A stretch of 14,165 bases of DNA from Desulfobacteraceae bacterium (GTDB lineage Bacteria; Desulfobacterota; DSM-4660; Desulfatiglandales; Desulfatiglandaceae). The notes under the pieces are model-generated. The model was not told the origin of the DNA, did not search any database, and saw nothing but the letters and a program-made list of their open reading frames with translations. Every line of letters begins with the position of its first letter. Positions within the stretch are counted from its first letter, which is position 1. Shown here piece after piece: positions 1 through 14,165 of the stretch. The position numbers and the translations under genes were made by a program. Location: NCBI GenBank assembly GCA_013203065.1, contig JABMQV010000778.1, forward strand, positions 1-14,165, written 5' to 3'.

Positions 1-1532
1 GGATCCGACTCACTCAGGCCGGATAACTCCAGGGCGACCTCTTCGAGTCTCCTGGCCGCACCCGAGAGGCCCGCGACCTCCTCCCCTAGGGTGGAATGGT
101 CTTCGTTTTTGCTGCAGAAATCATCCAGCTCGGACCTATAAGCCTTGAAAGGACCCCCATTATTGATCCTCATCTTTCTGCCCAGAAGATCCATGGACTG
201 GATTCCATTTGTGCCCTCATAGATTGATGCAATTTTGACATCCCTCAGGAACTGTTCCACATGATATTCCCTGCAATATCCGTATCCCCCCAGGCACTGG
301 ATGGCTGTTTCGCAGACCCTGAAGCCCATGTCGGAGCAGTATGCCTTGATTATGGGGGTTATAAAGTCAAGCAGGTCGTGATAGTGTCTTTTTTTATCCC
401 CATCCGGCAGTTCCAGTGCCAGATCAGACCAGTAGGCGCCGGTGTAGATCATGGACCTCATTCCATCCACCGTGGCCTTCATCCAAAGGAGCATTCGTCG
501 CACGTCGGGATGGTCAATGATAGGGACGTAACCGGGTTTTCTGCCTGCGATGTCATGACCCTGGATACGTTCCTTGGCGTATGCAAGGGCGTTCTGATAG
601 GCCAGACTGGCCAGGGTGGTTCCGCTGACACCGGTGTTGATCCGGGCCTGGTTCATCATCTGGAACATATGTGGCAGGCCCCTGTTCTCTTCCCCGCACA
701 GATATCCGACACAATCATCATTATCTCCGAAATTGAGCGCACAGGTGGGAGAGGCATGCAACCCCAGCTTTTCCTCGACCGCCGTGCAGATGACATCGTT
801 GGGTCCTCCAAGGGAGCCATCGGGCTTCACCTTTATTTTGGGAACAACAAAGAGAGAAATTCCCTTTACGCCTTCGGGGGCCCCTTCCATGCGGGCCAGG
901 ACCAGGTGGATGATATTTTCCGCCAGATCATGGTCTCCCGCCGAGATAAAGATCTTGTTTCCCTTTATCTTGAACCGGTCCCCATCGGGGATGGCAATCG
1001 TGCGTGTGGCGGCCAGATTGGAGCCGGCATTGGGTTCTGTGAGGCACATGGTTCCGGCCCACTGCCCCCTGTACATCTTTGGCACAAAGCGTTCCTTGAG
1101 TTCCTCTGTAGCAAAGCTCTCGATCAAGTGGGCTGCCCCGTGGGTAAGGCTTGGGGTAACATTGAACGACTGGGCAGCGCCATACATCTGATCATTGATG
1201 ACAATCCTCATCATGTGCGGGAACCCTTGACCGCCATATCTCGTGCTGCGGGCAGCCGCGATCCAGCCATATTCGCCATACTGCTTGAAGGCTTCCTTGA
1301 ACTCGGGGGGGCAACGGACCTGACCGTCTTCAAAGACCACGCCCTGCTTTTCTCCAATTTCCTGAAGGGGTTCCACCACGCCCTTGGCAAACTTGATGGC
1401 CTCGGTGACCAGCATATCCAAGGTCTCCTCGTCAAGCTCCCGGTAGCGCTCAAGTTTGCACAGACTGCCGTAGTTGAGCTGTTCCCTTAAAATAAAGAAG
1501 ATATCTTTTTCGTTTACCTTGAAATGTCCCAT
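1..1532 (-). CDS. Large acyl-CoA dehydrogenase, 3' end cut by window edge
   Basis: This flavoenzyme should oxidise an acyl-CoA to the 2,3-enoyl-CoA and pass electrons to ETF in the cytoplasm. The frame on the minus strand is open for 510 codons from ATG at 1532, with an AAAGGTAG ribosome site just upstream. The N-terminal helical domain spans about residues 1-160. The FAD/substrate segment CLTEPNAGSN lies at 163-172 and the FFxxS-type strand KIFISAGD at 193-200. The C-terminal helical domain carries GGYGY at 415-419 and IYEGTNGIQ at 437-445, whose Glu439 matches the catalytic base Glu376 of MCAD. The chain continues about 70 residues past this motif to the window edge, as in roughly 600-residue dehydrogenases with an extra C-terminal domain, so it is probably cut short only by the edge. 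It lies 17 bp downstream of another acyl-CoA dehydrogenase in the same operon. The substrate is unknown. Confidence 0.93.
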   Translation of the reverse strand, partial: MGHFKVNEKDIFFILREQLNYGSLCKLERYRELDEETLDMLVTEAIKFAKGVVEPLQEIGEKQGVVFEDGQVRCPPEFKEAFKQYGEYGWIAAARSTRYGGQGFPHMMRIVINDQMYGAAQSFNVTPSLTHGAAHLIESFATEELKERFVPKMYRGQWAGTMCLTEPNAGSNLAATRTIAIPDGDRFKIKGNKIFISAGDHDLAENIIHLVLARMEGAPEGVKGISLFVVPKIKVKPDGSLGGPNDVICTAVEEKLGLHASPTCALNFGDNDDCVGYLCGEENRGLPHMFQMMNQARINTGVSGTTLASLAYQNALAYAKERIQGHDIAGRKPGYVPIIDHPDVRRMLLWMKATVDGMRSMIYTGAYWSDLALELPDGDKKRHYHDLLDFITPIIKAYCSDMGFRVCETAIQCLGGYGYCREYHVEQFLRDVKIASIYEGTNGIQSMDLLGRKMRINNGGPFKAYRSELDDFCSKNEDHSTLGEEVAGLSGAARRLEEVALELSGLSESD

Positions 1533-2741: not shown

Positions 2742-3515
2742 CTATTTTCTACCAAAACCCATGCGCAGACCCCCGTCCAGTCTGATATGTTCGCCATTTA
2801 GGTAAGTGTTTTCAACGATATGACAGGCAAGGGAGGCAAACTCCGAGGGTTCACCCAGACGGGGAGGGAAGGGCACCTGAAGGGCCAGCCGTTCCCTTAT
2901 CTTTTCCGGGAGCTGGGCCAGCAAGGGTGTGTCCATGATCCCGGGAAGGATGGTCATTGTCCGGATTCCATTATTGGCAAATTCCCTTGCAAGGGTCAGG
3001 GTCAAGGAGACGATTCCCCCCTTGGATGACGAATAGGCCGCCTGCCCCACCTGACCGTCTTGGGCGGCTACGGATGCTGTGTTGATATATACGCCTCTTT
3101 CTCCCTTTTCGTCGGGATTGTTTTCCATCAAGGTTGAGGCTGTGGCACGGATAACATTAAAGGTCCCGATTAAGTTGATCTGGATGGTACGGTTGAACGC
3201 CTCCAGAGGCATGACCCCGTCCCTACCCACTACCTTAATATCGCCTCCAACGCCGGCGCAGTTGAGAACTATCTGAAAGGCCCCGAACGCTTCTTTCACC
3301 TTATCAACAATCCCCTCCACCTCCTTTTCGTTGGAGACATCCCCCGGACAGAAAACCGCAGCATCACCCAGTTCCGCAACCAGCTTTTCGCCCCTTTCCC
3401 GATCCAGGTCTATAAGGGCCACCCGGCCCCCCTTTGCTACCAAAGCCCGTGCCGTGGCCTCACCCAGGCCGGACGCCCCACCTGTGATAATCGCTGCACT
3501 ATTTCCTATATCCAT
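2742..3515 (-). CDS. SDR-family 3-hydroxyacyl-CoA dehydrogenase (HSD10-like)
   Basis: This 257-residue classical short-chain dehydrogenase most resembles type II 3-hydroxyacyl-CoA dehydrogenases (HSD17B10-like). It would oxidise a 3-hydroxyacyl-CoA to the 3-ketoacyl-CoA with NAD. The nucleotide motif TGGASGLG is at 11-18, and Asp36 after the second strand favours NAD over NADP. NCAG is at 85-88, Asn114 is in the INL segment, and the catalytic set is Ser148, Tyr161 and Lys165 (YSSSK). PGIMDTPL (191-198) matches the family's PGxxxTP loop. It begins with ATG after an AAAGGAG site, 23 bp downstream of the HCDH-fold dehydrogenase, and ends 10 bp before the glutaryl-CoA-dehydrogenase-like gene. The two neighbouring 3-hydroxyacyl-CoA dehydrogenases could differ in stereochemistry or chain specificity. 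Confidence 0.92.
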   Translation of the reverse strand: MDIGNSAAIITGGASGLGEATARALVAKGGRVALIDLDRERGEKLVAELGDAAVFCPGDVSNEKEVEGIVDKVKEAFGAFQIVLNCAGVGGDIKVVGRDGVMPLEAFNRTIQINLIGTFNVIRATASTLMENNPDEKGERGVYINTASVAAQDGQVGQAAYSSSKGGIVSLTLTLAREFANNGIRTMTILPGIMDTPLLAQLPEKIRERLALQVPFPPRLGEPSEFASLACHIVENTYLNGEHIRLDGGLRMGFGRK

Positions 3516-3538: not shown

Positions 3539-4411
3539 CTATTTTTTCCGGCTACCGTCCGGATTGTAATCATACCATCCCTTTCCCGTCTTTCGGCCCA
3601 AATGACCTGCCAGGACCTTACGCCGCATGATGGAGGGGGGGTAAAATCGGAGGTCCTTTTCCTCTTCATAGACGTTGGTGTAGGCCATGAGGGATACCTC
3701 CAGGCCCACAAGATCCCCTGTCTCAAAGGGCCCCATTTTTCGTCCAAAGGCCAGCCTCATCCCTTTGTCAATGTCCTCCGGGGTTGCTACCCCCTGCTCC
3801 ACAAGACGCATGGCCTCCATATTTGAGACCATATTGATCCGGTTCAGGATAAAACCGGCAATATCCCTCTTCACCATGATCGGTTCCTTGCCGATAAATC
3901 GGACGAAATCGGCTCCGTATTGAAAGGTCTCATCACTGGTGGAGATGCCTCGGATGACCTCCACCGCTGCCATCATCGGCACAGGGTTGAAGAAATGGAG
4001 TCCTACAAAGTTTTCGGGGCGGCTCACTGCCGAGGCGATCTCTGTGATAGGTATGGCCGAAGTGTTGGAGGCCATGATGGTTTTGTCTCCCGCCACAGAA
4101 TCGAGTTTTTTGAATACCTCGTGCTTTACCGCCAGTTTTTCGAAGACTGCCTCAATGATCAGATCCGCATCAGCAGCCGCTTCGTAATCAGAGGACGTCT
4201 GGATGCGGCCCATGACCGTATCAACGTCTTCAGAAATCTTACCCTTCTCTGAAAATTTCGATACCGACCACGCAATGTTTTTGAGGGCCTTGTCCAGCAA
4301 ATCCCGGGACATGTCAGACATGACGACTGAAATCCCCGTTTGTGCGCAGACCTGGGCGATTCCATTTCCCATTGTCCCTGCGCCTACCACAAAGACTTTG
4401 TTGATATCCAT
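3539..4411 (-). CDS. 3-hydroxyacyl-CoA dehydrogenase (3-hydroxybutyryl-CoA dehydrogenase type)
   Basis: This 290-residue stand-alone L-3-hydroxyacyl-CoA dehydrogenase has the Rossmann glycine motif VVGAGTMGNG at 8-17. SNTSAI is at 115-120 and GLHFFNPVPMM at 137-147 with catalytic His139. Its partner Glu151 sits in VEVI, twelve residues later as in the family, and Asn190 lies in GFILNR. The C-terminal helical domain ends with GRKTGKGWYDY (272-282), the usual family ending. It oxidises (S)-3-hydroxyacyl-CoA with NAD in the cytoplasm. A longer start at 4429 is possible, but those six codons contain the AGGAG site that serves ATG 4411, so the shorter start is preferred. It is the first gene after a 460-bp gap and leads a tight run with the SDR and two acyl-CoA dehydrogenases. 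Its best functional reading is short-chain 3-hydroxyacyl-CoA oxidation. Confidence 0.94.
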   Translation of the reverse strand: MDINKVFVVGAGTMGNGIAQVCAQTGISVVMSDMSRDLLDKALKNIAWSVSKFSEKGKISEDVDTVMGRIQTSSDYEAAADADLIIEAVFEKLAVKHEVFKKLDSVAGDKTIMASNTSAIPITEIASAVSRPENFVGLHFFNPVPMMAAVEVIRGISTSDETFQYGADFVRFIGKEPIMVKRDIAGFILNRINMVSNMEAMRLVEQGVATPEDIDKGMRLAFGRKMGPFETGDLVGLEVSLMAYTNVYEEEKDLRFYPPSIMRRKVLAGHLGRKTGKGWYDYNPDGSRKK

Positions 4412-4573
4412 CCTTTCGCTCCTTTCCATGGATTTTCCATAAGATCATATTCCCTTTTTCTGGTAAATTCTGAAAAAGTTCGTGGACCGTGGGGCGTAGC
4501 GGAAGTGAGAAGTAAATTCACTTTGAGAGAGCGCCTGAGAGAAACACCCGAACCCCACTGCAGAAATCCTATT

Positions 4574-4871: not shown

Positions 4872-5651
4872 CTATTTTCCCTTAAAATGGGGTTTTCTCT
4901 TTTCGAGGAAGGCGGTTACACCTTCGTTTTTGTCCTGGGTTCCGCAGACTTCTGAAAAGGCCTGATTTTCAATTTCGAGCCCCTGTTCCAGCGTCAGCGA
5001 GAGCCCTCTTGAGGAGGCTTTTTTGGCTGCCCTCACGGCCAGTGGCCCCTTGCTGTTGATCTTGCCTGCCAGCTCGAATGCCGCGTCCCTCAAAGAGGCC
5101 AGGGGAACAACCTGTTGGATCAAACCGATCTTCAGCGCCTTTTCAGCCGAAATGGCCTCGCCCGTGAACAGAAGTCGGTTCGCCCATCCCAAAGGTATGG
5201 CACGGGGGAGCCGCTGGGTCCCTCCGGCTCCCGGAATCAGCCCCAAATTTACTTCCGGTACGCCCAGCTTGACATGATCAGCAGCGATTCTGATGTCGCA
5301 TACCAGGGCCAGCTCCAATCCGCCTCCCAGGCACAGACCATTGATGGCAGCGATCACCGGCTTTTCAAAACAGTCCAGTTGGCTGAAAAACTTGCGTGTA
5401 TCCTGTACCCGCTTGAGACCGCTTTCTTGATCAAGTTCCAAAAGACCCGGTATGTTGGCCCCTGCCATAAAGAACTTCTCACCGGCCCCGGTGACGATGA
5501 GGGTCCATACGTCGTCGTCCTTCGAAATCTGAGAGAGTTTTTCCGAAAACTCGTCTCTCAATTCAGGGGTTAAGGTGTTTGCAGGGGGGTTGTTTATGGT
5601 AATAAAGGCCACTTGTTGAAGAATTTCTATCTGGATTTTTTCTGTTCCCAT
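4872..5651 (-). CDS. Enoyl-CoA hydratase (crotonase)
   Basis: This 259-residue crotonase adds water to a 2,3-enoyl-CoA to give the 3-hydroxyacyl-CoA. Both catalytic glutamates are in place: Glu113 in GGGLELALVCD (109-119) and Glu133 in PEVNLGLIPGAGGTQRL (132-148), matching Glu144 and Glu164 of rat crotonase. The oxyanion-hole region FFMAGANI is at 60-67, and the family C-terminal signature FLEKRKPHFKGK ends the protein. The ATG at 5651 follows a GGAGA site. It reads away from the divergent promoter region shared with the second crotonase gene and is followed by a 460-bp gap, so it may be transcribed partly independently of the dehydrogenase run. Unlike the divergent paralogue at 5918-6694, this copy has the residues of a genuine hydratase. 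Substrate chain length is unknown. Confidence 0.95.
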   Translation of the reverse strand: MGTEKIQIEILQQVAFITINNPPANTLTPELRDEFSEKLSQISKDDDVWTLIVTGAGEKFFMAGANIPGLLELDQESGLKRVQDTRKFFSQLDCFEKPVIAAINGLCLGGGLELALVCDIRIAADHVKLGVPEVNLGLIPGAGGTQRLPRAIPLGWANRLLFTGEAISAEKALKIGLIQQVVPLASLRDAAFELAGKINSKGPLAVRAAKKASSRGLSLTLEQGLEIENQAFSEVCGTQDKNEGVTAFLEKRKPHFKGK

Positions 5652-5917: not shown

Positions 5918-6694
5918 ATGGACTTCAAGTATATCTTATTTGAGATAAAGGATCACATCGCAAAGGTCATATTGAACATACCCGAAAAATTGAACGCCCT
6001 CAACCTGGAGGTACGCGCGGAACTCCTGGAGGCCTTTGGACTGGTGCGCGGTGATGACTCGATTAAGGTGGTTGTTATCACTGGAATGGGGAAGGCCTTT
6101 TGCGCCGGGGGCGATGTTTCGACAATGGAAGGAATCACACCGGTGGCGGGGAGGCTGCGGCTCAAGAGTGGCCAGAGGTTGGTCAAGACCATGGTGGAAT
6201 TGGAAAAACCGATCATCGGGGCCATAAACGGCATCACTGCGGGGGCCGGGGTAAGCATTGCCCTTGCGTGCGATATTCTCATAGCGTCCGAGGAAGCCAG
6301 GTTTGTTCTGCCTTTTACCAAATTGGGGCTGGTGCCTGACTGGGGGCAGTTTTATTTCTTGCCGCTTCGGGTGGGAATTGCCCGTGCCAAGGAACTTATG
6401 TTTACGGGAGATATGATAAACGCCGCCGAGGCCGAACGTATGGGTCTCGTCAACAGGATTGTTCTGGGAAGAAAAGTGGTAGAGGAAGCCATGGCTTTTG
6501 CAGAGCGGTTGGCAAAAGGGCCGAGTCAGTCCTATGCAATGATCAAGGCAGCCCTGAATCGGTGGCCGGCAAGCCTTGAGTCATTCTTGGAACTGGAATC
6601 CAGCATGCAGGCCGTAGCCTTCAGCAGTAATGATTTTGACGAGGGGCGGAAGGCATTCCTTGAAAAGAGAAAACCCGAATTTAGCGGAACCTGA
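5918..6694 (+). CDS. Crotonase-fold protein lacking hydratase glutamates; PaaG-like isomerase candidate
   Basis: This 258-residue crotonase superfamily member starts at ATG 5918 behind a strong GGGAGGAG site (5905-5912). The oxyanion loop AFCAGGDV is at 60-67, and GAGVSIALACD at 109-119 forms the second half. The first catalytic Glu of hydratases is Ser113 here, and the second falls at Phe133 (LPFTKLGLVPDWG, 131-143). Asp141 in LVPD sits where PaaG-type isomerases carry their catalytic Asp, so a double-bond isomerase or other crotonase chemistry is more likely than simple hydration. The C-terminal signature FLEKRKPEFSG is intact. It leads the plus-strand operon, 53 bp ahead of the regulator gene and divergent from a true hydratase. 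Division of labour between the two crotonases is a reasonable inference. Confidence 0.92.
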   Translation: MDFKYILFEIKDHIAKVILNIPEKLNALNLEVRAELLEAFGLVRGDDSIKVVVITGMGKAFCAGGDVSTMEGITPVAGRLRLKSGQRLVKTMVELEKPIIGAINGITAGAGVSIALACDILIASEEARFVLPFTKLGLVPDWGQFYFLPLRVGIARAKELMFTGDMINAAEAERMGLVNRIVLGRKVVEEAMAFAERLAKGPSQSYAMIKAALNRWPASLESFLELESSMQAVAFSSNDFDEGRKAFLEKRKPEFSGT

Positions 6695-6747: not shown

Positions 6748-7446
6748 ATGGCAAAAAAGGGTGCTGACTTGAAAAAGAAAAAAGAACCACTGGAATCCCC
6801 TGTGGATGTGGCCTTCAGGAAGATAAAGGAGATGATGTATCACCATGAAATAGTGCCCGGGCAGAAGCTCCTTTATCAGGAACTGGCCCAAAAGCTTAAT
6901 ATGAGTGTCACTCCGATTGTTCAGGCACTGAATAGATTGCAGCTCCTCAACATTGTCCACTCAGAGCGTAATAAGGGGTTTTATGTTGGAGAGGCTGACC
7001 CGGTGGAGGCCAAGGAGTTGTTTATTGCCCGGGAGGCGTTAGAGACCTATGTTGTTCCTGCCGTGATAGAAAATCTCACCGACAAAAGGATCAGTGCCAT
7101 TGAAAGGGCCATGAAAGAACACACCAGGGGAGTTTCGGTTCCTCAATACAGACGAATTCTCATGATCAAGGACACCAATTTCCATCTCAAGATTATCGAG
7201 TGCGCGGAAAACAAGGTGGTTTATAATATGTGCAAATTGCTGCTTGAACAGATCTATCTGAAATACAGACCCGAATATATGAGAGAGCCCAGACTGGCAA
7301 AGGCGGCGGAGGAGCACGAAACCATAATGGAATCCTTGAAAAAAAGAGATGTGAGAAAAACCAAACGCCTGGTCAAGCAGCATATTAAGAGAGGCAGGGA
7401 ACACGTGGTAAGCAGCCTGCTGGAAGACAAGACCATTGAGTTTTAA
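6748..7446 (+). CDS. GntR-family transcriptional regulator, FCD (FadR-like) subfamily
   Basis: This 232-residue protein has an N-terminal winged helix (about 18-82) and an all-helical FCD ligand domain (about 88-220). The winged helix shows the family pattern PGQKLLYQELAQKLNM (37-52) and ends with the wing NKGFYV (75-80). In the recognition helix the usual S-R-T-P-V-R-E is Ser53-Val54-Thr55-Pro56-Ile57-Val58-Gln59, so both DNA-contacting arginines are missing. The FCD domain keeps the metal or ligand pattern Asp142-x3-His146, with later His190 and His212. It probably senses an acyl-CoA or organic acid of this pathway and controls the divergent operons. No strong ribosome site is visible, and a 15-bp dyad ends 2 bp before the ATG. 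It lies between metabolic genes of one operon, 20 bp before the mutase gene. Confidence 0.9.
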   Translation: MAKKGADLKKKKEPLESPVDVAFRKIKEMMYHHEIVPGQKLLYQELAQKLNMSVTPIVQALNRLQLLNIVHSERNKGFYVGEADPVEAKELFIAREALETYVVPAVIENLTDKRISAIERAMKEHTRGVSVPQYRRILMIKDTNFHLKIIECAENKVVYNMCKLLLEQIYLKYRPEYMREPRLAKAAEEHETIMESLKKRDVRKTKRLVKQHIKRGREHVVSSLLEDKTIEF

Positions 7447-7466: not shown

Positions 7467-9131
7467 ATGTCAGACACTTACAAGAAAATTCAGGATGAGA
7501 AAAGGCGGTGGTCTGAAACCGTTATGAACAAGCGGCCATTCAGTCGTCATTTGACTGACTGGGGTGATCCCGTCGAGGTGTTGTATACCCCGGACGACAT
7601 TGGGGACGGGGACTATGTTGGAAATTCCGGGTTTCCCGGTGAATATCCATTTGTACGGGGGATTCATCCCAATATGTATCTGGGCCGGCCCTGGACCATG
7701 CGGCAGTATTCCGGATTCGGTACGGCAGAGGAGACCAACAAGCGATTCAAGTATCTGTTGGAACAGGGGCAGACCGGCCTTTCGGTGGCCTTTGATCTTC
7801 CCACCCAGATCGGATATGACTCGGACCATCCCATGAGCGAAGGGGAAGTGAGTAAGGTCGGCGTACCGGTCGATTCTCTTGAGGATATGGAGCGGATCTT
7901 TCAGGATTTACCTCTGGATAAACTGTCGACCTCCATGACCATTAATGCTCCCGCGGCCATCTTGTTGGCCATGTATATCGTGGTTGCCGAAAAACAGGGG
8001 ATTTCATCTGAGAAGCTCAGGGGGACCATACAGAACGATATCCTCAAAGAGTATACGGTCAGGGGGACCTATATCTTCCCTCCCCAGCCTTCCATCAGGC
8101 TCATCACAGACGTCTTCGAATTTTGCAGCAAACACGTGCCCCTGTGGAATACCATAAATGTGGCCGGTTACCATATGCGTGAGGCGGGCTGCTCGGCCGT
8201 GCAGGAAATTGCCTTTAGCTTTTCCAATGCCATCGCCTATATTGAGGCAGGGCTTCAAGCCGGCCTCGACATTGACAGCTTTGCGCCGAGGATAAGTTGG
8301 ATCTTCAATACCCACAACAAGATCTTCGAGGAAGTGGCCAAATACCGCGCCGCCAGAAAGGTGTGGTCAGAGATTCTCCGTTACAGGTTTGGGGCCAAGG
8401 ACCCACGATCCTGGATGCTTCGTTTTCATACCCAGACATCAGGGGTGAGCCTGACGGCCCAGCAACCCGAGAACAATATGGTACGGGTGGCCTACCAGAC
8501 TCTGGCCGCGGTCTTGGGAGGGGCACAATCGATCGCTGCCTGTTCCTTTGATGAGGCCCTGGCGTTGCCCACGGAAAAATCGGTCAGACTCAGCCTCCGG
8601 ACACAGCAGATACTCCTGCATGAAGCCGGGGTAACGGACACCGTGGACCCCTTGGGGGGATCTTACTACATAGAATCTCTGACTCGGAAGATGATTGGAG
8701 AGATCAAGGAATTGATCTCCAAGATCGATGAGCTGGGCGGGGCGGTAGCAGCCATCGAAAAGGGATATATACAAAAGGAGATCGAGATCAGGGCATATTC
8801 CTTTCAGAAGGAGATTGAAAAGAAAGAGAGGATAGTGGTTGGCGTGAATGATTACAAGATCAAGGAAGATCTGAGCTTTGCCATATTTAGACCTGACCCG
8901 GCCCATGCACGCAGCCAAATATCGAATCTTCAGAGGTTGAAGGAGACCAGGGATCAGACCGGTGTCCGGTCTTCCCTGGACGATTTGCGAGAGGCCGCCG
9001 GGGGGGAGGATAACCTCATGCCATTTTTTGTGGAAGCAGTTAAGTCCTATGCCACACTGGGAGAGATCTGCGGTGTGCTCAGGGAGGAGTTTGGGGAATA
9101 TCAGCAGGTTGAAACGCTTGGGAAGAGATAA
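7467..9131 (+). CDS. Methylmalonyl-CoA mutase-type catalytic subunit without B12 domain
   Basis: This 554-residue chain is the TIM-barrel catalytic part of an adenosylcobalamin acyl-CoA mutase. It rearranges the carbon skeleton of an acyl-CoA by radical chemistry. By-eye alignment with Propionibacterium MutB gives Tyr81 (RQYSGF) for Tyr89, Arg199 (TVRGTY) for Arg207 and His236 (GYHMREAG) for His244. Tyr and Arg bind the free carboxylate in methylmalonyl-CoA mutase, and isobutyryl- and hydroxyisobutyryl-CoA mutases replace them. The substrate is therefore probably a carboxylated acyl-CoA (methyl-, ethyl- or alkylmalonyl/succinyl type). The protein ends near QQVETLGKR with no DxHxxG cobalamin motif, so a separate B12-binding subunit is required, and none is in the window. 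The start has an AAAGGA site. It lies 15 bp before the next gene. Confidence 0.94.
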   Translation: MSDTYKKIQDEKRRWSETVMNKRPFSRHLTDWGDPVEVLYTPDDIGDGDYVGNSGFPGEYPFVRGIHPNMYLGRPWTMRQYSGFGTAEETNKRFKYLLEQGQTGLSVAFDLPTQIGYDSDHPMSEGEVSKVGVPVDSLEDMERIFQDLPLDKLSTSMTINAPAAILLAMYIVVAEKQGISSEKLRGTIQNDILKEYTVRGTYIFPPQPSIRLITDVFEFCSKHVPLWNTINVAGYHMREAGCSAVQEIAFSFSNAIAYIEAGLQAGLDIDSFAPRISWIFNTHNKIFEEVAKYRAARKVWSEILRYRFGAKDPRSWMLRFHTQTSGVSLTAQQPENNMVRVAYQTLAAVLGGAQSIAACSFDEALALPTEKSVRLSLRTQQILLHEAGVTDTVDPLGGSYYIESLTRKMIGEIKELISKIDELGGAVAAIEKGYIQKEIEIRAYSFQKEIEKKERIVVGVNDYKIKEDLSFAIFRPDPAHARSQISNLQRLKETRDQTGVRSSLDDLREAAGGEDNLMPFFVEAVKSYATLGEICGVLREEFGEYQQVETLGKR

Positions 9132-9146
9132 GAAGGAGGAGATTAT

Positions 9147-10589
9147 ATGACGACGGTGGGAATAAGTTTATGCGGTGGCTACATCCCTTACCTCAGGCTG
9201 GATCGAGGGGTCATCGCCCAAATATGGGGAAGGCATTCCATAGGCGGGGAGAGGAGTGTGGCCAACAATGACGAAGACAGTATCACCATGGCCGTTGAGG
9301 CGTCAAGAAATTGCGTGGTGGGCCAAGGTGTTGAAGAGGTGGATGGACTCTTTTTTGCCACCACGACGGCTCCCTATAAGGAAAAGATGAACGCCTCGTT
9401 GATTGCGACGGCGGTGGATTTAAAGAGGGAGATAACAACGGCTGATTTTGCCCATTCACTCAGGGCGGGGACAGGGGCCCTAAAGGCCGCCTTTGACGCG
9501 GTGAAGAGTGGTTCCATGGGCAACGTGCTGGTAGCGGCCTCTGATTGCCGTATCGGTTATCCAAGGTCAGACCAGGAACAGGCCTTTGGCGATGGTGCCG
9601 CCGCCGTTATGGCGAGTTCAGAAAACCTGCTGGCCACCTTTGAAGGGAGCTATTCCATCTGTAACGAAATGATGGATGTTTGGAGAAACCCTGAGGATAC
9701 CTTTGTCAGGACCTGGGAGGGGCGCTTTATCCTGGGCGAGGGTTACATCAATCACATGAAAGAGGTGGTTTCAGGCCTTTTCGGGAAATACGGCCTTGAG
9801 CCGAAAGACATATCAAAGGCCATCCTGCCCGCCCCCGACGTCCGGACTCACGGCAGCCTGGTAAAACAATTGGGATTTCAAATGGAGACACAGGTGCAGA
9901 ATCCCTTGCTGTCGATCGTTGGACATTGCGGTTCCGCGCATGCACTGCTGATGCTGGTGGAGGCCATTGAAGAGGCGAGTCCAGGGGATATGCTCCTTTT
10001 GGCCAACTATGCCGATGGTGCCGACGCAATGCTTTTCAGGGTCACCGAGGCGATCAAAAGGGAGAGGAACCAGCGCAGTGTGAAGGATTACATTGAAGAA
10101 AAGTCTCTTCTTGCCTCCTATGTCCGGTTCTTGAGTTTTAAAGGGTTGGTGGAATCGGTCCCCGGAGAGCCGTTTCGTCTGATGCCGTCTGCAACGGCAA
10201 GCTGGCGGGATCGCAGGGGTATACTCAGGTGTCACGGAAGTAAGTGCACCGAGTGTGGTAAGGTTACTTTTCCGGTACAACGTATCTGTTATCATTGCGA
10301 TTCAAAAGATACGTTTGAAGAAGTCCCCATATCCTATATGAAGGGAGAGGTCTTCACCTTTACCCTGGATAACCTGGCTGGCAGGAGCGATGATCCGGTC
10401 GTGGTTCAAACGGTCGCAGACTTTGGTGAAGAAAAAGTCCGTTTTTATGGCATGATGACCGACTGTGACCCGTCTGAGGTGGAGGTGGGGACGTCTGTCA
10501 GCCTCACATTCAGGAGGATCTATGATGGTGTCGGGATGCACAACTACTTCTGGAAATGTAGACCAGTGAGAAGGGGGGGCAATACATAA
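9147..10589 (+). CDS. HMG-CoA synthase-like / DUF35 OB-fold fusion protein
   Basis: This 480-residue protein starts behind a strong AAGGAGGAG site. Residues 1 to about 305 follow the thiolase-fold HMG-CoA synthase family: RAGTGALKAA (106-115), GDGAAAVM (148-155) and GHCGSAHALLML (259-270). By-eye alignment to archaeal HMG-CoA synthases puts Leu105 at the catalytic Cys, a Thr near 73 at the catalytic Glu, and Pro228 at the catalytic His, so this half may be non-catalytic. Residues about 350-475 form a DUF35 domain: a rubredoxin-like zinc ribbon with Cys367, Cys370, Cys381 and Cys384, then an OB fold. DUF35 proteins bridge thiolase and HMG-CoA synthase in archaea and are the BbsA subunit of benzoylsuccinyl-CoA thiolase. 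Its stop overlaps the thiolase start (TAATG), which implies a complex between the two products. Confidence 0.9.
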   Translation: MTTVGISLCGGYIPYLRLDRGVIAQIWGRHSIGGERSVANNDEDSITMAVEASRNCVVGQGVEEVDGLFFATTTAPYKEKMNASLIATAVDLKREITTADFAHSLRAGTGALKAAFDAVKSGSMGNVLVAASDCRIGYPRSDQEQAFGDGAAAVMASSENLLATFEGSYSICNEMMDVWRNPEDTFVRTWEGRFILGEGYINHMKEVVSGLFGKYGLEPKDISKAILPAPDVRTHGSLVKQLGFQMETQVQNPLLSIVGHCGSAHALLMLVEAIEEASPGDMLLLANYADGADAMLFRVTEAIKRERNQRSVKDYIEEKSLLASYVRFLSFKGLVESVPGEPFRLMPSATASWRDRRGILRCHGSKCTECGKVTFPVQRICYHCDSKDTFEEVPISYMKGEVFTFTLDNLAGRSDDPVVVQTVADFGEEKVRFYGMMTDCDPSEVEVGTSVSLTFRRIYDGVGMHNYFWKCRPVRRGGNT

Positions 10590-11776
10590 TGGGCAGCATA
10601 AAAGACGAAGTCGCCATTATCGGGATGGGATGCACCAAGTTTGGTGAACGTTGGGATATGGGAGCGGAAGATCTGGCCATCGAGGCCGCCTATGAGGCCT
10701 TTGAAGACGCCGGGATCGAAAAAAAGGAGATCGAGGCGTGTTGGTTTTCAACGGTCATGGCCCCGTTAATCGGGGTGTCGGGAACCGTGGCAATGGATTC
10801 CCTGAAGCTTGGAAATATTCCTGTCATTCGAAATGAGAACTGGTGTGCGTCCGGTCACATTGCCCTTCTTGAGGCCTGTATGGCCGTCGCCAGCGGGGCA
10901 TACGACGTTGTTATGGCCCTCGGTGTGGAGAAGCTGAAAGACACCGGATTCCCCGGTCTGGGAACGGGAAGGGGGATGCATCCGGTCTATGAGGCCAGGA
11001 GGACATCACCGGGATCTTTCGGGTTGATAGCCCAGCGTTATTTCAAGACCTACGGATTGAGTATGGAGGAGGGCAGGGAGACGCTGGCCAAGATAGAGGT
11101 CAAGAATCATGACAACGGGAGCCTTTGCCCCAAGGCCCATTTTCGCAACAAAATCACCGTGGAAAAGGTTTTGAAAGCACCGGTTATTGCCTGGCCTTTG
11201 GGCCTTTTTGATTGTTGCGGCAACAGCGATGGTGCTGCCTGCGCCATCATCACGACGGCTGAAAAGGCAAGAAGTTTTCGACAGGACCCCATTTTCCTCA
11301 AAGGGTTTGGCATTTCCGCAGACGCCATGATGCCCCATTTCAGACCGGAATTCAGCTGGACCAGCTTTGAGTCCCTCAAGACATCCTCCCATAAGGCCTA
11401 TGAAATGGCCGGGATCAAGAATCCCCGTGAAGAGTTGGATGTGGCAGAGGTCCACGACTGTTTTTCCATCACAGAGCTTCTGATCTATGAAGATTTTGGG
11501 TTCAGCCCCAGGGGGAAGGCAAAAGAGGATGTTGACGCGGGTTTTTTCACCCGTGAAGGAGGTCTTCCCGTAAACATTGACGGCGGTCTGAAATGCTTTG
11601 GTCACCCCATCGGCGCCAGCGGCCTGAGGATGACTTACGAGGTTTACAAGCAGCTACAGGGGAAGGCGGATTTGCCGGAGCGACAGATCAAGGACCCGAG
11701 GCTTGGCCTTTCCCACACCTTCGGGGGTCCGCCCCAGATCAGTGCGGTTGCCATTTTTGGGAATGAGATGGGATAA
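10589..11776 (+). CDS. SCP2/BbsB-type thiolase
   Basis: This 395-residue thiolase would cleave a 3-ketoacyl-CoA with CoA, or condense in reverse. The nucleophile is Cys86 in NENWCASGHIAL (83-94). AEVHDCFSITEL (286-297) supplies His289 and Cys291, and GHPIGASG (338-345) supplies His339. The HDCF and GHP motifs and the lack of a classical C-terminal CxG cysteine (here SHTFGGPP, 375-382) place it with SCP2-type thiolases, including BbsB of anaerobic toluene degradation. Such enzymes often need a DUF35 partner. The gene before it encodes a DUF35 fusion and overlaps it by one base (TAATG), so translation is coupled. The residues suggest a catalytically competent enzyme. The 3-ketoacyl substrate could be branched or carboxylated, but that is inferred from neighbours. 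Confidence 0.93.
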   Translation: MGSIKDEVAIIGMGCTKFGERWDMGAEDLAIEAAYEAFEDAGIEKKEIEACWFSTVMAPLIGVSGTVAMDSLKLGNIPVIRNENWCASGHIALLEACMAVASGAYDVVMALGVEKLKDTGFPGLGTGRGMHPVYEARRTSPGSFGLIAQRYFKTYGLSMEEGRETLAKIEVKNHDNGSLCPKAHFRNKITVEKVLKAPVIAWPLGLFDCCGNSDGAACAIITTAEKARSFRQDPIFLKGFGISADAMMPHFRPEFSWTSFESLKTSSHKAYEMAGIKNPREELDVAEVHDCFSITELLIYEDFGFSPRGKAKEDVDAGFFTREGGLPVNIDGGLKCFGHPIGASGLRMTYEVYKQLQGKADLPERQIKDPRLGLSHTFGGPPQISAVAIFGNEMG

Positions 11777-11889: not shown

Positions 11890-13449
11890 ATGACTGATTA
11901 TGTAGAGAAGTATGATCCGGAAAGGATTGGCATCCCTGCCAATGCCAGGAGGACACCTGATCGAGCTGCCCTTATTATGGATGATCAGGTTGTTACCTTT
12001 GAGGAACTTGAAAGCAAGACCAATGCACTTGCCAATGCCTTTTTGGGACTCGGGATAGAGCCCGGGGATCGCATTTCCATCCTGTTGCACAATAGCCCCG
12101 AGATCTTAGAGGCATGGAGCGCCGCAGGAAAGATTTCAGTCACCCCCATCGCCCTCAATTATCGTTTCAAAGAGGACGAGCTGGCCTATATCATCAATGA
12201 TTCGGAATCAAAGGTCTTGATCTACGGACATGAGTTTGATCAGGTCGTAAATGCCACAAGGGCCAAGCTGACGGTTCCTCCCCTTGTATATATCTGCCTC
12301 GGGGGATCACGGGTTCCGGGTGTGCTGGATCTGGATGAGATTATAAGAGGGGCCCCTGATACACCCCCCCAGGTAAAGTCGGACGCAAGCGGGGTGGCCT
12401 CCTCACTGATCTATACCTCCGGTACCACAGGGAGGCCAAAGGGTGTCTTTAGAAAAAGCAGGAACCGGCTCAACAGCTTGCTGGCATATGCCCATCTCTT
12501 TGAAACCACCCATGATGATACCCACTTCGTTGCCGGGCCCCTTTATCATTCAGCCCCCTATGCCTGGGCCGTGTTTTCATTGATCCTGGGAAATACAGTC
12601 GTCATCATGCCCCGTTTTGATGCCGAGGAATACCTTCGGTTGATCCAGGAATATAAGGTAACAACAAACTGGGCGGTTCCGACTATGCTCAACCGCATTT
12701 TGAATTTGCCCCCCGAGGTCAGGGAAAGGTATGACATTTCCTCATTAAGGGTCATGACCGTTGGCGGGGAGTCTTTCCCCTTTCCCCTGGTAAAAAAGGC
12801 AGTGGAATATTTTGGAGAGGGGAAGATATTTGAATTCTTCGGGGCAACGGAGACGAGCTGTGTTACCTATATGAGACCGGAGGATCAACTCAGAAAGCCC
12901 GGGAGTTGCGGGGTACCGGCCATAGGGTGTGACATCAAATTGCTTGATGAGAACAGGAACGAAGTCCCCGTGGGAGAACCGGGGATCATGTATGTAAAAC
13001 ATGAGTTCCTCCTGGATGGGTATTACAGGAATCCTGAGGCAACAGCGGAAAACTACCACAATGGCTATTTTACCGTTGGGGACATGGGAAGGGTGGACGA
13101 AGAGGGATACTACTACATCGTGGATCGTGCCGTGGACATGATCATCTCGGGCGGGGTAAATATCTATCCTGCGGAGATCGAAGAGGTATTGTATGGCCAT
13201 CCCGACCTCTTCGACGCCTCGATCATCGGCGTCCCGGATCCGGACTGGGGCGAAAAGATTGTGGCCTATGCAGTGAAAAAGAAAAATGCCCGTATCCCCG
13301 AACAGGACGTCATAGATTATGTGGGGCAGCGGCTTGCCTCATACAAAAAGCCAAAAGAGGTTATTTTTCTGAGTGAGATCCCTTACTCGCCTTCGGGCAA
13401 ACAGCTAAAACGTGTCTTACGAGAAGAATATCCCAACAGGCAGAAATGA
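11890..13449 (+). CDS. AMP-forming acyl-CoA ligase (ANL superfamily)
   Basis: This 519-residue adenylate-forming ligase activates a carboxylic acid to its CoA thioester through an acyl-AMP, using ATP. The P-loop IYTSGTTGRPKG is at 174-185, the A5 motif FEFFGATET at 314-322, and the A7 aspartate Asp398 in YFTVGDMGR (393-401). The hinge and A8 region DRAVDMIISGGVNIYP is at 412-427, and the A10 catalytic lysine Lys504 lies in PSGKQLKR (501-508). All core motifs and the full length are present, so it should be active. The substrate pocket does not reveal the acid to me. The start ATG 11890 follows a GAAGGA site (11874-11879). It is separated from the thiolase by a 113-bp spacer with heptad repeats, and from the CoA transferase by a hairpin element, so it might be expressed separately from its neighbours. 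Confidence 0.94.
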   Translation: MTDYVEKYDPERIGIPANARRTPDRAALIMDDQVVTFEELESKTNALANAFLGLGIEPGDRISILLHNSPEILEAWSAAGKISVTPIALNYRFKEDELAYIINDSESKVLIYGHEFDQVVNATRAKLTVPPLVYICLGGSRVPGVLDLDEIIRGAPDTPPQVKSDASGVASSLIYTSGTTGRPKGVFRKSRNRLNSLLAYAHLFETTHDDTHFVAGPLYHSAPYAWAVFSLILGNTVVIMPRFDAEEYLRLIQEYKVTTNWAVPTMLNRILNLPPEVRERYDISSLRVMTVGGESFPFPLVKKAVEYFGEGKIFEFFGATETSCVTYMRPEDQLRKPGSCGVPAIGCDIKLLDENRNEVPVGEPGIMYVKHEFLLDGYYRNPEATAENYHNGYFTVGDMGRVDEEGYYYIVDRAVDMIISGGVNIYPAEIEEVLYGHPDLFDASIIGVPDPDWGEKIVAYAVKKKNARIPEQDVIDYVGQRLASYKKPKEVIFLSEIPYSPSGKQLKRVLREEYPNRQK

Positions 13450-13675: not shown

Positions 13676-14165
13676 ATGTCAGAAGACAAAAAACTCATGC
13701 CCCTGTCAGAGGCCATAGACCGGTACGTGTCAGACGGAGACGTCCTCTATCTGGGGGGATTCATCCAGCAGGAGCCGTTCGCAGCGGGCCATGAGATCAT
13801 AAGACAGGGCAAAAAGGACCTGACGGTTTCCAAGTGTGCGGCTTTGATACTTGTGGATCAGCTGATAGGGGCAGGGGTGGTCAGCCGCCTGATTACGACC
13901 TTTACCTGGAATCCCCTGCCAACCACGGCACACTGTTTTGTGCGCGCCGTGACAAAACAGATCCCCCGTGAAGTGGAGATAGAGGAGTATTCCATCCTGG
14001 CCCTCAACCTGGCCTATTTTGCAGGGGCATTGGATCTGCCCTATGTGGCAACCAAGACCATCCTGGGTTCAGGGTTTGATGGGGAGCAAACCGATTCCGG
14101 GGTCAAGAACAGGCTGAGGTTTGAAACGTCTCCATTTACCGGTGAACGGGTCTGTCTTGTTCCCC
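13676..14165 (+). CDS. Class I CoA-transferase alpha subunit (glutaconate CoA-transferase type), 3' end cut by window edge
   Basis: The frame from ATG 13676 is open for 163 codons to the window edge, behind an AGAAAGG site. The start MSEDKKLMPLSEAI is followed by DGDVLYLGGFIQQEPFAAGH (20-39) and EIIRQGKKDLTVSKC (40-54), the typical N-terminus of GctA-like alpha subunits. These move CoA between an acyl-CoA donor and an acid. The catalytic glutamate of this family is on the beta subunit, expected in the next gene outside the window. A role next to an ATP-using ligase could be an alternative, energy-saving activation of the substrate, or release of CoA from a product. IpdA-like ring-cleaving hydrolases share this fold, so transferase activity is likely but not certain. 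Confidence 0.88.
   Translation, partial: MSEDKKLMPLSEAIDRYVSDGDVLYLGGFIQQEPFAAGHEIIRQGKKDLTVSKCAALILVDQLIGAGVVSRLITTFTWNPLPTTAHCFVRAVTKQIPREVEIEEYSILALNLAYFAGALDLPYVATKTILGSGFDGEQTDSGVKNRLRFETSPFTGERVCLVP

Follow-up and report, generated by a model that had tools for sequence, protein, structure and literature searches.

A 14,165-nucleotide stretch of DNA from a Desulfobacteraceae bacterium (contig JABMQV010000778.1, assembly GCA_013203065.1), referred to here in its entirety as the window, encodes a protein in which a 3-hydroxy-3-methylglutaryl-coenzyme A (HMG-CoA) synthase-like half without catalytic residues is fused to a DUF35 domain, and the end of its gene overlaps the start of a thiolase gene. 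We consider it likely that this fusion protein lacks catalytic activity and serves a catabolic 3-ketoacyl-CoA thiolase as a subunit, probably an obligatory one, in an assembly resembling PhlABC and the complex of structure 6ESQ. A helper subunit is the most likely role because the synthase catalytic residues are lost, DUF35 is fused to what remains, and an intact thiolase is encoded alongside. The observed basis is the fold, loss of the triad throughout the family, retention of the zinc-binding cysteines, the intact thiolase residues, the pairing of the genes and purifying selection.

The triad columns were set by alignment to the M. thermolithotrophicus HMG-CoA synthase (6ESQ chain I, E 7e-34), and the same columns read Glu, Cys and His in 120/120 archaeal synthases used as a control. 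In the window protein they read Thr73, Leu105 and Pro228, respectively, and both the alignment and the control bear out the replacements named in the first-pass annotation, which had been made from the sequence alone. We then compared 92 fused matches including the window, which left 78 distinct proteins after 14 identical ones were dropped. None of the 78 has the catalytic Cys (L 55, T 11, V 5, I 5, M 1, E 1), the Glu (T 71, A 5, V 1, S 1) or the His (P 47, Y 15, S 7, A 3, T 3, F 2, G 1), and none of the three is found in any of the best 120 database relatives. The triad is likewise gone in 8/8 plasmid-borne fusions examined (from Sphingomonas, Novosphingobium (two), Rhodococcus (two), Azoarcus, Niveispirillum and Halorubrum), with the His region poorly aligned in one (L095). 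Genomes of Asgard-type and Chloroflexi-type phyla encode 26 fused proteins lacking Cys and Glu, one of which (L154) retains His, and 45 unfused proteins, 36 of which retain all three residues; two of the 45 are doubtful, one of 532 residues with intact letters that may be another thiolase-fold protein (L132) and one without the triad that is cut by a contig end (L161). Conservation of every Cys and His in the synthase half stays below 90%, which gives no sign of a displaced triad.

The synthase half nevertheless has an intact predicted fold (predicted template modelling score, pTM, 0.88) of the HMG-CoA synthase/thiolase type, for which 6ESQ is the best fold match, although the fusion misses the curated NCBIfam HMG-CoA synthase cut-offs (NF003274, 206 versus 244 bits; TIGR00748, 154 versus 353 bits). 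The second half is a DUF35 domain, as first annotated: residues 351–474 align to residues 4–128 of the 130-residue DUF35 subunit of 6ESQ, PF12172 is matched above its cut-off and the four zinc-ribbon cysteines are present. The window protein gave no match to the OB profile PF01796 in the profile search, but the corresponding region can be aligned with chain E of 6ESQ. The open reading frames, their coordinates and the TAATG overlap with the thiolase gene are all as originally described.

The window thiolase has all the motifs of a DUF35-associated thiolase, namely the nucleophilic Cys, HDCF and the His of GHP, and the reading of its catalytic residues as intact was confirmed at Cys86, His289-Asp-Cys291 and His339. 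Its best NCBIfam match is an acetyl-CoA acetyltransferase equivalog (525 bits, cut-off 403). The pairing of the two genes is widespread: 105 of 108 distinct relatives (window excluded) have a thiolase gene no more than 1.8 kb from the fused one, downstream in 104 and upstream in one (Halorubrum). No thiolase was seen beside the other three, two of which are near contig ends (L078, L084). The partner thiolases, window included, keep Cys86 (99/101), His289 (100/101), Cys291 (100/101) and His339 (101/101), and because they do so while the synthase triad is lost, the retained active site is that of the thiolase. All three modules, thiolase, HMG-CoA synthase-like half and DUF35, are encoded together in the window and in nearly all of these relatives.

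Comparison of the window with six close fused sequences gave ratios of nonsynonymous to synonymous substitution (dN/dS) of 0.05–0.10 for the synthase half and 0.03–0.12 for the DUF35 half, two of the six being saturated in the latter; four thiolases gave 0.04–0.06, except for 0.22 in the nearest, low-divergence pair. Because its ratio is low and similar to that of the DUF35 half, the synthase half is not decaying, and together with the 105/108 pairing this indicates more than a chance arrangement. The triad loss, the pairing, the purifying selection and the intact thiolase residues suggest that the synthase half is a structural or substrate-holding thiolase partner, as was proposed at first pass.

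We infer from this a physical complex that holds an acyl-CoA substrate and works in the direction of thiolysis, with the 6ESQ/PhlABC architecture put to this different use. The fusion and the thiolase would form a PhlABC/6ESQ-like assembly in which the DUF35 part docks on the thiolase, and the HMG-CoA synthase-fold half would keep its acyl-CoA-binding shape without its chemistry. A 3-ketoacyl-CoA could then be held and presented to Cys86 of the thiolase for cleavage. Several points weigh against this picture. One fused gene (L110, 3622–4986) lacks a thiolase within the 8 kb that were read; a different open frame lies directly downstream of it. When the fusion and thiolase of a relative (L033) were modelled with AlphaFold2 as one linked chain, the domains were good (mean per-residue confidence, pLDDT, 84.0) and pTM was 0.57, so the relative placement of the fusion and thiolase domains is not predicted. 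With the window genes as queries, each beta-oxidation gene was found in fewer than half of 40 loci. PhlABC is a biosynthetic system that functions when no CoA is added (PMC6392133). Finally, a set of residues specific to the fused clade could mean a new activity.

These residues are the basis for an alternative that we regard as unlikely, in which the synthase half is dead only as an HMG-CoA synthase and has been repurposed as an enzyme with a new active site. Glu191 (78/78), Asp149 (77/78) and position 79, which is acidic in 78/78 (E 70, D 8), are strongly kept in the fused proteins, none of these positions is acidic in the archaeal HMG-CoA synthase, PhlA or 9vbo_A references, and purifying selection on the synthase half would fit an enzyme. 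However, the half contains no well-conserved Cys or His, a complete thiolase is nearly always encoded alongside, and Glu79, Asp149 and Glu191 may instead form an interface to DUF35 or the thiolase. Furthermore, Arg135 (77/78) and Tyr325 (78/78) are near-invariant and yet not clade-specific, the former also occurring in PhlA and the latter in archaeal HMG-CoA synthases.

Thiolase chemistry is reversible, and the complex might make C–C bonds by a PhlABC- or HMG-CoA synthase-like acyl transfer or condensation rather than cleave a 3-ketoacyl-CoA. The solved complexes with a triad-less HMG-CoA synthase-like subunit, PhlABC and MucABC, are indeed acyltransferases, by paper or entry title. We think this improbable here, as the neighbours look degradative by name (acyl-CoA dehydrogenases, hydratases, ligases and CoA-transferases), ring-hydroxylating dioxygenases lie beside 2/8 plasmid copies, and the eight plasmid stretches contain no polyketide or peptide synthase genes, judged by names. 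If the synthase half were a relic that is no longer under strong constraint and persists through its attachment to a needed DUF35 domain, the loss of the triad would be accounted for, but the low dN/dS, the residues invariant across phyla and the intact predicted fold make this very improbable. That the partner is a retro-aldolase of the Ltp2/Sal type, with the fusion as its DUF35 partner, is scarcely credible given the complete set of thiolase catalytic residues and the acetyl-CoA acetyltransferase match, even though thiolase-fold aldolases bound to DUF35 exist (PMC12329534).

Returning to the fusion as a thiolase subunit, we examined its spread. Some match was found in 52/61 relatives, in many cases confined to the DUF35 part, and 91/297 genomes sampled from the phylum match at E 1e-40 or better. 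Matches occur in 72/72,556 plasmid records and in 64 of these cover 80% or more of the query. At 1e-20, 65/79 genomes of the Asgard-type phylum and 20/81 of the Chloroflexi-type phylum match; unfused proteins of ~350 residues account for many of these hits. Five pattern matches to possible viral relatives were found and none was confirmed. The fusion is common in bacteria and is present in archaea too, where the first-pass annotation had described the three parts as separate proteins.

A FastTree phylogeny of the synthase part was rooted on the M. thermolithotrophicus synthase after L132 and L161 had been dropped; at least three of its 112 fused rows were fetched twice (L128/L011, L129/L016, L130/L018). 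All 123 dead rows form one clade (0.992), and all 112 fused rows form one subclade within it (0.996). The dead rows outside the subclade are two PhlA, 9vbo_A, L134 (His kept) and L180 from the Chloroflexi-type phylum, and six from the Asgard-type phylum; support is weak for two of the branches that separate the dead groups from one another (0.606 and 0.126). In a previous tree, which had 86 fused rows and used archaeal synthases as outgroup, the fused clade received 0.843. Because the fused subclade is nested within the dead clade, the plain reading of the tree suggests that catalytic loss came first and was followed by a single fusion, with a root that rests on one synthase lineage. Outside the fused clade, five Asgard-type loci (L155, L156, L158, L200, L201) have an unfused triad-less HMG-CoA synthase-like gene near a thiolase and a separate DUF35 relative, as PhlABC-like triplets; a sixth such gene (L159) is near a thiolase, with no separate DUF35 relative noted. 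At the Chloroflexi-type locus L182 (G348 contig 129; the same as L134), a DUF35 match lies just upstream of the HMG-CoA synthase-like gene, which has Gln at the Glu position, Gly at the Cys position and the His.

Larger fusions also occur. Eight open reading frames of 909–913 residues have the fusion at their N-terminus, and the two that were dissected (L070, L076) add an SDR dehydrogenase and SCP2, in L076 also by Pfam. The same two additions are found in L108 and L109, while L105, L106 and L107 combine the fusion with SDR only; all seven have a thiolase gene downstream and another SDR-SCP2 protein upstream. On two plasmids the gene immediately upstream of the fusion is an SDR gene, and on a third a single gene intervenes. 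The SDR, fused or nearby, ties the fusion module to the oxidation that supplies the thiolase with its substrate. Two other candidates were rejected: the ~910-residue frames, suspected of being three-part fusions that include the thiolase, are fusion-SDR-SCP2 in those dissected, with the thiolase gene downstream, and ~870-residue frames in which one stop is marked consist of two genes that share a reading frame. More speculatively, a synthase that lost its chemistry a single time and was then joined to DUF35 in one fusion might have become the scaffold for a third type of beta-oxidation multienzyme in bacteria and archaea. In it, a dehydrogenase (fused in some lineages), the acyl-CoA-holding dead synthase, a zinc-finger plug and the thiolase would use a common CoA site and hand over the 3-ketoacyl-CoA without letting it go, acting on substrates that are branched, aromatic or carboxylated. 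The members with a fused dehydrogenase make channelling or holding of acyl-CoA by dead subunits testable.

Genes for aromatic ring-hydroxylating dioxygenases are found near two fusion-thiolase pairs, L093 and L097, carried by plasmids of Rhodococcus and Niveispirillum. In a Desulfotomaculum cluster a DUF35 gene (04021) lies beside an acetyl-CoA acetyltransferase gene (04022); in D. arcticum the 04021 protein was detected only in acetone- and isopropanol-grown cells and 04022 was also induced (PMC8084838). This is a possible proteomic sighting of a DUF35-thiolase pair.

Table 1 Features of the window, with positions in nucleotides
Feature	Position	Strand	Remark
Second acyl-CoA dehydrogenase	3..1532	-	continues past window edge
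Acyl-CoA dehydrogenase, 415 aa	1550..2797	-	best solved match glutaryl-CoA dehydrogenase 3mpi, 3e-97
SDR dehydrogenase	2742..3515	-	
3-Hydroxyacyl-CoA dehydrogenase	3539..4429	-	
Enoyl-CoA hydratase family protein	4872..5651	-	
Enoyl-CoA hydratase/isomerase family protein	5918..6694	+	
GntR/FCD regulator	6748..7446	+	
B12-dependent acyl-CoA mutase large subunit	7467..9131	+	directly upstream of fusion gene
Fusion gene, 480 aa	9147..10589	+	HMG-CoA synthase-like half and DUF35 (zinc ribbon, OB fold)
HMG-CoA synthase-like half	9147..10151	+	residues ~1-335
Thr73	9363..9365	+	position of catalytic Glu
Leu105	9459..9461	+	position of nucleophilic Cys
Glu191	9717..9719	+	invariant in fused proteins (78/78)
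Pro228	9828..9830	+	position of catalytic His
DUF35 domain	10209..10571	+	residues ~355-475; PF12172 26 bits, cut-off 23.2; 6ESQ chain E, E 1.7e-11
Zinc-ribbon Cys 367, 370, 381, 384	10245..10298	+	kept in 78/78 fused proteins
TAATG stop/start overlap, fusion/thiolase genes	10587..10591	+	TAA 10587-10589, ATG 10589-10591
Thiolase, 395 aa	10589..11776	+	catalytic Cys86, His289, Cys291, His339; best solved match 6ESQ thiolase
AMP-forming acyl-CoA ligase	11890..13449	+	
CoA-transferase alpha subunit	13676..14165	+	continues past window edge; profile match weak

The gene set of the window is of the beta-oxidation type (Table 1). Its nearest named relative is a Desulfobacteraceae metagenome-assembled genome (L001, 97% identity), in which the full-length counterpart of the CoA-transferase matches PF01144 and has glutaconate CoA-transferase as its best solved match (8e-43). 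The top-scoring solved match of the mutase is a 2-hydroxyisobutyryl-CoA mutase (4r3u); however, by alignment its pocket carries the Tyr, Ala and Arg of methylmalonyl-CoA mutase rather than the Ile, Asp and Gln of 2-hydroxyisobutyryl-CoA mutase. We therefore rejected a 2-hydroxyisobutyryl-CoA mutase of an acetone pathway. A mutase gene lies within 2.5 kb of only 16/108 fused genes, 12 of the 16 at least 50% identical to the window, and within 5 kb in 11/40 well-covered loci, which places the mutase outside the core module. The B12 mutase set is large in the lineage of G001, G002, G003, G018 and G020, with 7 to 13 large-subunit matches per genome, some partial, and 24 B12-binding domains above the cut-off in G001. 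With neighbours resembling glutaconate CoA-transferase, glutaryl-CoA dehydrogenase and methylmalonyl-CoA mutase, a carboxylated, possibly branched acyl-CoA is a plausible substrate, and our guess from the neighbouring genes is a route of beta-oxidation of carboxylated or rearranged acyl-CoA.

By hand count, ~40 of the best 120 database relatives carry an HMG-CoA-synthase-type name, which on fused dead proteins would wrongly suggest a step of the mevalonate pathway; the triad residue test separates them from true synthases. The suggested history would have made a pseudoenzyme into a permanent component of a different enzyme.

Among known systems, 6ESQ has all three parts and is the best solved sequence match for each part of the window system. 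There, the DUF35 subunit joins the thiolase and the synthase and CoA binds at their interface (PMC6392133 and PMC12329534). Unlike the window protein, the 6ESQ synthase has the Cys and Glu (and, by alignment, the His), and its three chains are separate, whereas here synthase and DUF35 are fused among degradative-looking neighbours. BbsAB, the catabolic benzoylsuccinyl-CoA thiolase (7PXP), also pairs a thiolase with a DUF35-type partner; we know of no HMG-CoA synthase-like part in it, and the window proteins fall below the BbsA and BbsB equivalog cut-offs (25 versus 250 and 158 versus 750 bits). In the steroid side-chain aldolases Shy-Sal and ChsH2-Ltp2, a DUF35 domain docks on a thiolase-fold enzyme, and that of Shy is fused to another acyl-CoA-pathway domain, but the chemistry is that of an aldolase and MaoC takes the place of the HMG-CoA synthase-like half. 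In the Friedel-Crafts acylase PhlABC (5M3K, 9SKH) and in MucABC (9VBO), a triad-less HMG-CoA synthase-like subunit is accompanied by subunits of the thiolase and DUF35 types. The synthase Cys and Glu are replaced by Gly and Cys in PhlA, and acyl transfer involves residues of PhlC only, PhlA and PhlB being judged necessary for a functional complex (PMC6392133); the triad is absent from the MucABC chain 9vbo_A too, by alignment. The dead synthase part, first annotated as a different design, is thus not new as such. These complexes differ, however, in having separate subunits, in catalysing biosynthetic acylation and in lying outside the fused clade in both trees. A search of titles and abstract beginnings, with limited coverage of subscription papers and covering 20 of 41 and 10 of 63 papers in two of the result lists, found no description of a fused dead HMG-CoA synthase-DUF35 protein. 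The window system thus apparently represents a fused, catabolic and phylogenetically broad branch added to the small set of solved thiolase/DUF35 complexes, one that would share with PhlA the known principle of a dead subunit.
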